Below, piece by piece: positions 25,531 through 51,230 of a DNA stretch of 64,000 nt. How positions within the stretch are numbered: position 1 is the stretch's first letter; each line of letters starts with the position of its first letter. A model generated the notes under the pieces. That model worked only from the letters and a program-made list of their open reading frames with translations, had not been told where the DNA came from and searched no databases. Location: contig NZ_ML974131.1 of assembly GCF_004143485.2 (NCBI RefSeq), positions 397,749 through 461,748 of the forward strand, written 5' to 3'. The DNA comes from Halorussus amylolyticus (GTDB lineage Archaea; Halobacteriota; Halobacteria; Halobacteriales; Haladaptataceae). Position numbers and translations under genes: made by a program.

Positions 25531-25592
25531 ACGCTACATTTTTAAGTGAATTACCGGTATCCTTTTGTGGGTAAAGTACGTTCATCGAAACA

Positions 25593-25742
25593 ATGAGTTC
25601 TCTCGACGACGATTCTCCAAGCGAAACTACGGACAGAAGTGGGAGTTGCGACGACGTAGACGAAGAGACTCGCGCTAAACTCGACGAGGACGGTGTTCTG
25701 ATGGATACTGAGGAAGTCGTCGAAAGTTTATCGGAGCTGTAA
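25593..25742 (+). CDS. Small acidic protein, possible antitoxin
   Basis: A 49-residue acidic protein (MSSLDDDSPSETTDRSGSCDDVD then ETRAKLDEDGVLMDTEEVVESLSEL). The second half looks like a short helix-rich binding peptide. It is followed 41 bp on by a protein with a RelE-like overall size, so a toxin-antitoxin role is inferred only from pairing, charge and lower GC content. Confidence 0.45.
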   Translation: MSSLDDDSPSETTDRSGSCDDVDEETRAKLDEDGVLMDTEEVVESLSEL

Positions 25743-25783
25743 GTCGCGTAATTTTTACGATATCGGTGCCGTGTGCTCTCTTA

Positions 25784-26227
25784 ATGACACAGCCCGCCGT
25801 CTATCTCCCTCCCGTGTTTTCCGAGAACGTCTGCGATTTGGACAAGAACCACCAACGACAGATAAAGTCGAAAATCGAAGAAATTGCAGGCCGTACCGTT
25901 TCCGATATCGAAACCCACGCCCCGCGTTCGAAGCTCTACAAACGGCTAACCGGCCGAAAGTACACGTGGACCGCCCGTGCCGGAACGTGGCGTCTGTTTT
26001 GTACCTACTTCGAACACGTCTACGATGGTGACGAACATATTCCAGTCATCGTTTTTCTGAACGTCCAGTATCGCGAAAAGGACTACCAGCGGATCGACAG
26101 TTCAGTAGTGCCGAAAGTCGAAGTGACGAACGTATTGGAGTGGGCGAACGAAAAGTCCGACCGAGAAATACGGACACACAGGGACGACGAAATGGCTGAA
26201 CACATCGACGAGAGCTTCGACGTGTAG
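25784..26227 (+). CDS. Possible RelE-like toxin or nucleic-acid-binding protein
   Basis: A 147-residue protein starting at ATG 25784. VYLPPVFSENVCDLDKNHQRQIKSKI then KLYKRLTGRKYTWTARAGTWRLFCTYFEHVYDG suggests a compact alpha/beta core rich in Arg, Lys and Tyr as in RelE/ParE toxins, with IPVIVFLNVQYREKDYQRI as the C-terminal strand. It is not a definite family hit. The acidic tail (EMAEHIDESFDV) is unusual. The gene pair has lower GC than its neighbours. Confidence 0.5.
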   Translation: MTQPAVYLPPVFSENVCDLDKNHQRQIKSKIEEIAGRTVSDIETHAPRSKLYKRLTGRKYTWTARAGTWRLFCTYFEHVYDGDEHIPVIVFLNVQYREKDYQRIDSSVVPKVEVTNVLEWANEKSDREIRTHRDDEMAEHIDESFDV

Positions 26228-26230
26228 GCT

Positions 26231-28579: not shown

Positions 28580-28863
28580 AAGCATCCCGGCGCGCGCTGG
28601 CGCTCCCTTGTGGAGCGCCATCATTCGTGCGAGGGATGAGTATTGCAGGGAAGGAGCGACCGACGGGAGCGACTGACCGAGAAACGCAGTCGGTTGGGGA
28701 GGTGTGTGGCCTGCGGTGGCGGTGCTGTGCGGTTTCATATGTACCGGGAGTAGCTAGCTTCACTCGAAAACACGAGCAAATGAAACCGGAATCAACAAAC
28801 AGCAAACGGCGAACAAACAACAAAACGGCGAACGAGAACAGAGCTAGCTATTCCCGGTACCTA
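28580..28863 (+). repeat. Dispersed repeat, copy 1 (with inverted tail)
   Basis: It starts near CGGCGCGCGCTGGCG, has a hairpin TGGCGCTCC/GGAGCGCCA (28598-28620, loop CTTGT), then GCGAGGGATGA, GAGCGACCG, GTCGGTTGGGGAGG and GCGGTGCTGTGCGG, and ends in the tail TACCGGGAGTAGCTAGC (28742-28758). About 80 bp later an inverted tail GCTAGCTATTCCCGGTA (28843-28859) begins a second, oppositely oriented end. The body aligns with the copy at 50.92-51.08 kb. Confidence 0.85.
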
Positions 28864-28984
28864 GAAGACTCCCTCGCTCACTTCGTTCGCTCGCTCCCAT
28901 TCGGAAGTGAAGATTCACGAAACGATTGGTGGCAAAAATTCACGAAGCGTCACTCAAAACTCTGCATCACGAAACGACCTTCTC

Positions 28985-46194: not shown

Positions 46195-47214
46195 ATGACC
46201 GACCTCGGAAAGGTGGACCGGGAGTTCTTCGACTCGCACATCTACCCGAATCTCGGGGCCGACCGCGGGGACGTGACCCTCGGACCGCGACACGGCGTGG
46301 ACTTCGGCGTCATCGACGTGGGCGGGCAGGCGGTCGTCCTCGCCGCCGACCCGCTCTCGCTGACGCCCGCGCTCGGCTTCGAGAAGGCGGCGTGGTTCGC
46401 GGTCCACGTCGCGCTCTCGGACGCCGCGGTGTCGGGGATTCCCCCCTCGCACCTCGCGGTCACGTTCACCCTCCCGCCCGAGATGACCGACGCGGAGTTC
46501 CGGACCGTCTGGGAGACGTTCGACCGCGAGGCCACCGACCTCGGCGTGAGCATCGTGACCGGCCACACCGCCCGATACGGCGGATGTTCGTACCCGTGGG
46601 TCGGCGGCGCGACCGCGCTCGCGGTGGGCGACCCCGACGACCTCGTGCGGCCCGACGGCGCGACTCCGGGCGACCGACTGCTCGTCACGAAGGGACCGGG
46701 TCTCGAAGTCGCGGGCTTTCTGGTGACGCTGTTCGAGGACGCGGTGGATCTCCCCGAACAGACGATTTCGGACGCCAAGGAGCGGTTCTGGGACCTGAGT
46801 CCGGTCCGGGACGCGCTGACCGCGGCGGCCGCCGGACCCGTCACGGCGATGCACGACGCGACCGAGGGCGGCCTTCGCGGCGCGCTGGTCGAACTCGCGC
46901 GGGCCGGAGGGGTCAGACTCGACGTGGACTCGTCGGCGGTGCCGTTCCTGCCGGGCGTTCGCGAAGCGTGCGACTTCTTCGAGGTGGACCCGTGGACCGC
47001 GACCAGCGAGGGGACGCTCCTGCTGACTGTCGAGGCGTCGGGCGTCGAGGCGGTCCTGTCGGCGCTGGAAGCCGAGGGCATTCCGGCGGCCGAAATCGGC
47101 GAGGTTCGGGAGGGCGAGGGGGCGTATCTGGACGGCGAGCGCGTCGAACCCCCGGAGGTGGACCCCTCGTGGGAGGTCTTCGAGGAGTACGCCGAGAAGG
47201 TGGGACTGGAGTGA
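46195..47214 (+). CDS. AIR synthase-related protein (HypE/ThiL-like family)
   Basis: A 339-residue protein from ATG 46195 (MTDLGKVDREFFDSHIYPNLG). The N-terminal AIR-synthase domain has GRHGVDFGVIDVGGQAVVLAADPLS-type residues and GFEKAAWFAVHVALSDAAVSGIPPSHL. The later AMHDATEGGLRGALVELARAGGVRL is the family's ATP-binding C-terminal core. Related to HypE, but no Cys-rich C-terminus is present and no hydrogenase genes are near, so the substrate is unknown. It is in the same direction as the antiporter. Confidence 0.8.
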   Translation: MTDLGKVDREFFDSHIYPNLGADRGDVTLGPRHGVDFGVIDVGGQAVVLAADPLSLTPALGFEKAAWFAVHVALSDAAVSGIPPSHLAVTFTLPPEMTDAEFRTVWETFDREATDLGVSIVTGHTARYGGCSYPWVGGATALAVGDPDDLVRPDGATPGDRLLVTKGPGLEVAGFLVTLFEDAVDLPEQTISDAKERFWDLSPVRDALTAAAAGPVTAMHDATEGGLRGALVELARAGGVRLDVDSSAVPFLPGVREACDFFEVDPWTATSEGTLLLTVEASGVEAVLSALEAEGIPAAEIGEVREGEGAYLDGERVEPPEVDPSWEVFEEYAEKVGLE

Positions 47215-47297
47215 ACCGGGGATCCTCCGTATTTTATTTCGTAGACGTGTTTGGCGGTGAGACGTGTGCTCAGCGGGAAAAGGGGTGTTTGACACGA

Positions 47298-47603
47298 GAA
47301 GCTAGCTACTCCCGGTACCTATGAGGACCGCACAGCACCGCGACCGCACCGCGCCCCGTGCCTCCCCGCCTGCTCGCGCACGAGGCGCTCGCGGCGCGTC
47401 CCGTGGTCTGCGTAGCCTCCGAAACGCCAGACTTGTCCGGGCCCCTGCGGTCAGGAAGCACTCGCGCGCCTCCGGCAGAGGCGCGCGAGTGGGGAGGTGT
47501 GGGGATTCCTGGCGGATGAAGGGCGAGGGAGGCGCGAGCGACCGACAGGGAGCGAGCAACGACTGAGGGCTTCAATTCCTAGGTACCGGGAGTAGCTAGC
47601 TTC
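47298..47603. mobile_element. Dispersed repeat, copy 2 (24-bp terminal inverted repeats)
   Basis: The ends are perfect 24-bp inverted copies (47298-47321 and 47580-47603), each including the 17-nt tail TACCGGGAGTAGCTAGC, for a total of 306 bp. The right half has the hairpin ACTCGCGCGCCTC/GAGGCGCGCGAGT (47460-47490, loop CGGCA), GAGCGACCGACAGGGAGCG and the tail. The left half is similar in reverse orientation (GCGGTGCTGTGCGG on the minus strand). No coding capacity and no clear target duplication. Confidence 0.75.
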
Positions 47604-47730
47604 ACGCCGATGAACCCTATTCGAAATGAATACGGTACCAGCGACTGGCGGAGGCTGATGAACGCTAACAACGAGCGAAGCCACTCCGAAAAAATCCCGG
47701 CACGGAACCGAATACGCCAGAAGTACGCTT

Positions 47731-47997
47731 CTACGCGCCGGCTTCTTCGAGCGCCGATTCGAGTTCCTCGCGCTGGGTGACGCCGACGAATCGCTCTACC
47801 ACGCCGTCGTCGTTCTCGACCACGATGGTCGGAATCGAGCGGACCTGATACTCGTTGGCGACGTCTTGGTGTTCGTCCACGTCAATTTTCTCGAACTCGA
47901 CATCGCCCCAGTCAGACTCCATCTCTTCGAGGATGGGGTCCTGAGTCTTGCACGGGCCACACCAGTCGGCGTAAAAGTCCTTCAGGGTGACAGTCAT
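47731..47997 (-). CDS. Thioredoxin
   Basis: An 88-residue thioredoxin from ATG 47997 (MTVTLKDFYADWCGPCKTQD). The active site is WCGPC, with the cis-Pro in VRSIPTIVVENDDG. The length is that of a minimal thioredoxin. Longer readings extending upstream to 48303 overlap the opposite strand's Sec61-beta gene and are Arg/Ser-rich, so they were not used. It serves as electron donor for reductases. Confidence 0.93.
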   Translation of the reverse strand: MTVTLKDFYADWCGPCKTQDPILEEMESDWGDVEFEKIDVDEHQDVANEYQVRSIPTIVVENDDGVVERFVGVTQREELESALEEAGA

Positions 47998-50916: not shown

Positions 50917-51230
50917 CACGGCGCGCGCTGGCGCGACTCGTGGTTTGAGTCGCGCCCAAAGCGCGCGAGGGATGACGAGAACGAGCGACCGCAGGGAGTG
51001 AGTGAACGAATCGGTTGGGGAGGATTGTGGCCCGCGTTTGCGGTGCGGATGCGGTCTCATAGGTACCGGGAATAGCTAGCTGCTCTCTACTTCTGTCGTT
51101 GAGGATTTTGACCGCGTCTCTACCTCCGTCGTTGAGGACTTTGACCGCGTGGAAAGTCGCGCATACCCGGAATAGCTAGCCGCTCTCTACTTGCGGTCCA
51201 GTTTATTGGGTTTCGTTATCTACTCCCGGT
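50917..51230 (+). repeat. Dispersed repeat, copy 3, with extra tails
   Basis: CGGCGCGCGCTGGCGC leads to a hairpin GGCGCGACTC/GAGTCGCGCC (50930-50956, loop GTGGTTT), then GCGCGAGGGATGA, GAGCGACCGCAGGGAG, ATCGGTTGGGGAGG, GCGGTGCGG and the tail TACCGGGAATAGCTAGC (51064-51080). Two 33-bp tandem repeats follow (51084-51149). A second tail with one mismatch lies at 51164-51180 and a weak inverted tail near 51221. The body aligns with copy 1 over about 160 bp. Confidence 0.85.

Follow-up and report, generated by a model that had tools for sequence, protein, structure and literature searches.

The window analysed here, a stretch of 64,000 nucleotides from Halorussus amylolyticus, contains a 306-bp element in the gap between an AIRS-family gene and a thioredoxin gene. 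Its two ends form a perfect 24-bp inverted repeat (47298-47321 and 47580-47603), which extends to 30 bp at 93% identity (47295-47324 and 47577-47606). An earlier note on this DNA had described an element bounded by such repeats and free of target duplication at its flanks, and both points hold: the head motif (24-28 bp) found at its ends matches the genome at 69 places with no more than three mismatches, against none for the reversed control; the 306 bases fold more stably than shuffled sequences (z = -6.1); and the flanks, ACACGA on the left and ACGCCG on the right, contain no target duplication. The head scan behind these counts used a 25-bp head over the whole genome, with the reversed pattern as its control. 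The two arms, however, are not partial copies of one repeat body, as the same note had supposed. The element is a convergent pair of two repeat units, one of type A on the plus strand and one of type C on the minus strand, which have the head and the CCTCCCC-hairpin module in common; the type C arm, too, scores against the type A model (E = 5.6e-4). Three other loci in the genome match over the full length or nearly so, at 79-85% identity, which brings the A-C composite to four loci. Because linker length varies freely among the copies, no reading frame is kept and the element is non-coding. It has no Rfam match at E ≤ 1. Its parts are given in Table 1, together with the other units of the window.

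Table 1. Coordinates of the A-C composite, its modules and the type B and degenerate units of the window
Feature	Position	Strand	Context or evidence
A-C composite, two converging units	47298..47603		between AIRS-family gene (46195-47214, +) and thioredoxin gene (47731-47997, -)
Class I head of unit A, GAAGCTAGCTACTCCCGGTACCTATGAG, with the left repeat arm in its first 24 bp	47298..47325	+	conservation onset sharp in 61 class I heads
C-rich linker, ACCGCAC/ACAGC-like repeats, length differing among copies	47326..47352	+	copy comparison
Type A hairpin module, CCTCCCCGC-stem-GCGGCGCGTCCCGTGGTC	47353..47408	+	R1 model, E = 1.3e-8 (focal copy itself in the model's alignment); covariation
Centre of the composite, GTAGCCTCCGAAACGCC..., recognisable in the remaining A-C composites	47409..47449		copy comparison
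Hairpin module of unit C; stem arms 47459-47472/47478-47491, 100% complementary	47450..47502	-	self-comparison; type A model match
Type C-specific module, GAAGCCCTC ... CCCTTCATCC; similar modules in further haloarchaeal genera	47514..47573	-	copy comparison
Class I head of unit C, with the right repeat arm in its outer 24 bp	47576..47603	-	self-comparison
Type B unit, head at 28761	28588..28761	-	site in common with H. salilacus
Degenerate unit diverging from the 28588..28761 unit, heads 79 bp apart	28840..28940 (end approximate)	+	same arrangement in H. salilacus
Type B unit with its head at 51083, plus a further decayed head at 51162-51183	50919..51083	-	no counterpart in H. salilacus

Plan of the repeat units

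All units follow the same order. First comes the 5' head, sharply bounded and about 28 bp long; a C-rich linker (ACCGCAC/ACAGC) whose length varies is next, and the tail is made of one or two GC-rich hairpins, with CCTCCCC before and CRTCC after. The type A tail has one hairpin. In type B, the tail opens with a variable loop region, after which comes a hairpin with strong pairing that ends in GCGCGCCG; the type C tail starts with GAAGCCCTC...CTTCATCC, and its terminal hairpin is picked up by the type A model as well. Each of the four type C units seen in the H. amylolyticus genome faces a type A unit. Type B is present at two further places in the window and in at least 65 copies in the genome. 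Its 3' boundary is sharp: conservation stops abruptly after GCGCGCC just as it sets in abruptly at the head, and single units are thus elements in their own right. Most heads sit at one end of a single unit, and only eight pairs converge, at about 300-390 bp. Since most copies of the terminal inverted repeat are therefore single heads of one-sided units, the repeat that bounds the focal element is a by-product of two converging units. Would paired heads then be better preserved? By a hand count from the head scan they differ from the motif at about 1.4 positions on average and single heads at 1.6, so that pairing brings no better conservation.

The type B tails of the H. amylolyticus genome carry at least four kinds of head, namely class I (GAAGCTAGCTACTCCCGGTACCTATGAG), class II (GAAGCGTCCTGCTCGCACGTCACCTATGAG), class III (GGCCCCTTTCAGTCCCACC, which occurs in distant families too) and class IV (GACCGCTACTYGCACGGTACMWATGAG). 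The class I head also differs by species (for instance CTGCCGTCACC in G016 and CTCCCGAAACC in G017), and its exact pattern has zero matches in named genomes other than H. amylolyticus.

Several features surround the heads. Class II units are often arranged as divergent pairs, in which a unique spacer of a few tens of bp separates the two heads (L311, L312, L315, L316, L319), and in several families a further conserved hairpin-like module precedes the class III head (for example at loci L284, L285 and L322). At class I and II units the GC skew is about +0.2 on the upstream side of the head and switches to -0.41 directly downstream of it. In 18 of 78 cases, locus-specific tandem repeats with a period of 6-60 bp terminate 0-35 bp upstream of the head, compared with 5 of 100 control intergenic stretches (Fisher p = 5e-4); such arrays are found, for example, at L094, L089, L116 and window 51084-51190, and some contain extra decayed heads.

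The hairpin stems vary in sequence yet remain paired. In the 18-pair type A stem, 98% of cells are paired, ten pairs have changed on both sides and one-sided changes are nearly absent; covariation reaches 0.446, against 0.126 in shuffled and at most 0.077 in slid versions. CGTC lies 3' of many type A hairpins, alternating with CATC. The inner stem of type B, taken over 111 stems, has 1045 Watson-Crick pairs, 3 G-T and 4 A-C, counts obtained with a mismatch-penalising stem finder that understates non-Watson-Crick pairs. Stem change seems to proceed block by block, in the manner of DNA palindromes, and not through G-U steps. Where the outer type B stem departs from pairing on the plus strand, the mismatch is nearly always A-C, equivalent to G-U when the minus strand is read (columns 85 and 86 of A1; 15 of the 16 unpaired cells); G-U amounts to 6.6% on the minus strand against 2.6% on the plus strand. 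This bias is the main argument pointing to a minus-strand RNA or single strand.

Placement, shared sites and distribution

Heads lie outside called genes in all 68 cases placed (0 of 68 inside), the calls coming from a simple, uncurated gene model. By the orientation of the upstream and downstream neighbours, 18 are between convergent genes (U+D-), 13 between divergent genes (U-D+) and 36 between tandem genes (21 U-D- and 15 U+D+), with one left unassigned; head orientation relative to genes is close to random. A 3'-UTR or terminator element, an idea prompted by the convergent genes in the window, was rejected on the strength of this near-random orientation. A promoter or leader was likewise rejected, a TATA-like signal being present upstream of 3 of 79 heads, against 6 in the control stretch. 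The genes adjoining heads are ordinary ones, judged on the best 25 of 172 families among 119 neighbouring proteins.

Between H. amylolyticus and H. salilacus, for which 62 and 42 sites were listed, both flanking genes are orthologous at 13 site pairs, and the focal site is a fourteenth; by a rough estimate, chance would give one or two. About a quarter of the sites are common to H. salilacus; for the other three quarters or so, these incomplete site lists gave no shared counterpart. Orthologous copies have the same orientation in both species. In 11 of the 20 units compared, the orthologous copy ranks 1-4 of 54 in similarity, and lower in the rest; wholesale gene conversion among copies was rejected, since orthologous copies are often still among each other's nearest relatives. 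The empty-site comparison proposed in the earlier note also gave a result: with the same two genes on either side, the site is filled in H. amylolyticus and H. salilacus and empty in the congener G009. The AIRS-thioredoxin gap measures 516 bp in H. amylolyticus and 586 bp in H. salilacus, where this A-C pair is also present; in G009 the two genes are separated by 66 bp that contain no element. A clean insertion is not demonstrated by this, because the empty site is shorter by 450 bp and not by 306. The type B unit with its head at 51083 has no H. salilacus counterpart, although both neighbouring genes are conserved there. Taken with the shared sites and the empty focal site, this implies that sites are gained or lost over time, slowly. 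Elsewhere in the window, a 700-bp stretch (25531-26230) is absent from H. salilacus, which has 68 bp there; it seems to contain two small genes, the second of which resembles, by eye, a RelE/ParE-type toxin (toxin-antitoxin pair).

Within Halorussus, a single genome yields as many as 28 copies with the type A model; outside the genus there are almost none. The type B model matches all 65 candidates scored in the H. amylolyticus genome, copy counts being lower bounds, and at least 13 of the 27 genera tested have a match; among the candidates scored, G009, G022, G030 and others gave none. Across 257 Gb of genomes, the type B core pattern occurs in haloarchaea only among the matches listed, which include Haladaptatus, Halosimplex, Haloarcula, Natrinema, Halococcus, Haloarchaeobius, Halegenticoccus, Halapricum and Natronomonas. 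Units are carried by chromosomes, and plasmid matches sit on replicons typed as non-mobilizable. Viral contigs and phages have no repeat matches, and horizontal carriage by viruses was rejected on this ground. G009, a Halorussus species with zero type A or B matches where most congeners have many, is useful for finding a gene lost together with the repeats.

Known repeat families and candidate enzymes

The open-access literature searched on haloarchaeal intergenic repeats holds no description of this family, for which neither a name nor an Rfam entry was found. REPINs are among the nearest published descriptions (PMC3116915). Like REP, BIME and REPIN sequences, the haloarchaeal units are intergenic and palindromic, number dozens to hundreds of copies, occur as singles and inverted pairs, and fall into several classes per genome. 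The family is arranged like REP/BIME, yet it falls outside the RAYT-linked family. Its units are about 110-215 bp long, as opposed to 20-60 bp; its hairpins have CCTCCCC before and CRTCC after, in place of a GTAG or CGTC tag at the hairpin end; inverted doublets are better conserved in REPINs, whereas paired heads here are no better kept than singles; and, unlike RAYT-linked REPs, the repeats are seen in haloarchaea only and the H. amylolyticus genome has no RAYT/Y1 gene. The CGTC REPs of bacteria, for their part, have no known dedicated transposase (PMC3733652), and in this the haloarchaeal units resemble them.

Two repeat groups of Haloquadratum walsbyi also deserve comparison. PATEs are transposase-free, with near-terminal palindromes, no target duplications, and heterogeneous ends that keep a conserved terminal oligonucleotide; they lack inverted terminal repeats and have ends in common with IS605-type transposons (PMC3119063). 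The present units, compared with PATEs at the level of published descriptions, are similarly transposase-free haloarchaeal repeats without target duplication, and they too have near-terminal palindromes and varied ends with a conserved oligonucleotide at the terminus, but the A-C composites do have inverted terminal repeats and no IS605-type transposon was linked to the units. SMRs have inverted terminal repeats unlike those of known transposons, no target duplication, a length too short for a transposase and an unexplained mode of movement; SMR-A, of about 110 bp, is highly alike within its type and inserts into other mobile elements (PMC3119063). The repeats, the missing duplication and the short length are found in the haloarchaeal units too; unlike SMRs, however, their copies are diverse, mostly one-headed and adjacent to ordinary genes, and the SMR preference for insertion into PATEs or IS605-type elements is not seen.

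What could move such units? The Y1/RAYT transposase (PF01797) is absent from the H. amylolyticus genome (G000, 99.9% complete) and from G016, and mobilisation by RAYT as in REPs was rejected on its absence from the former. The H. amylolyticus genome has four TnpB genes and no TnpA. TnpB counts do not track element counts, G009 having seven TnpB and zero type A or B matches, and derivation from IS605/TnpB was rejected because TnpB is present in every Halorussus genome, with or without repeats; by eye, the gene calls beside class III heads include no TnpB-like gene. The full-length transposon sharing the 24-bp ends, which the earlier note suggested looking for, was not found either, and the best 25 of 172 neighbour-gene families (119 neighbouring proteins) contain no transposase.

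Possible origin and spread of the family

The earlier note had called the element MITE-like, and it is indeed small, non-coding, bounded by terminal inverted repeats and multi-copy. A classical MITE would have arisen from a DDE transposon by deletion and would be mobilised by that transposon's transposase acting on the 24-bp repeats; perfect repeats, a length of 306 bp, four full or nearly full-length composites and orthologous sites both filled and empty all agree with this. Yet terminal inverted repeats are present on the four A-C composites and not on most of the 69 heads, single units have a sharp 3' end of their own, and the same tails carry several different heads. Some known MITEs lack target-site duplication; here there is none, no parent transposon with GAAGCTAGCTACTCCC ends was found, and the copies are only 79-85% alike. 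A strict MITE is accordingly improbable. We consider a structured RNA family, either a small or a cis-acting RNA, transcribed perhaps from the minus strand in the case of type B, quite unlikely as well. Strong stem covariation speaks for it, as do the outer-stem departures of type B that fit minus-strand G-U, but the variable stems show almost no G-U or one-sided intermediates, and random orientation relative to genes, the lack of a TATA-like signal upstream of heads and the lack of an Rfam match weigh on the other side.

The units might instead be chromosome-organising or protein-binding sites, where a nucleoid protein binds or topoisomerase or condensin is loaded, and which selection on DNA shape would maintain. 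Sites common to two species, the presence of units on chromosomes and non-mobilizable-typed plasmids and not in viruses, the change in GC skew across the head (about +0.2 to -0.4) and the species-specific head variants are consistent with them; against this, the incomplete lists gave no counterpart in the second species for about three quarters of the sites, and the congener G009 lacks type A and B matches, which makes such a role unlikely. A broader account, to be held tentatively as a possible though not a favoured one, takes the units as haloarchaea-wide, hairpin-forming chromosomal elements with interchangeable 5' heads, either moved or maintained by a non-RAYT enzyme or serving as chromosome-organising sites; on this account the heads look like recognition sequences that differ by species on a constant hairpin scaffold.

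On balance, we lean towards a family of haloarchaeal mosaic repeats of REP/BIME-like character, whose spread would depend on their hairpins and on an enzyme acting in trans, the focal element being a composite of A and C. The units would most likely spread as REP and BIME sequences do, an enzyme provided in trans copying a single DNA strand that folds into hairpins; they would land in intergenic DNA in either orientation, where they may combine into pairs. In the H. amylolyticus genome this spread is probably slow or over by now, because near-identical unit copies indicating recent movement are not seen there and shared sites look inherited. The best reading is that the family was once dispersed and is now largely vertically inherited.

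These intergenic repeats appear to be abundant in haloarchaeal genomes; they invite false small ORF calls there, and could confound comparative work on promoters or small RNAs. Because they join exchangeable heads to a hairpin scaffold that is conserved, and lack a recognisable transposase, they offer a testable REP-like system outside bacteria.
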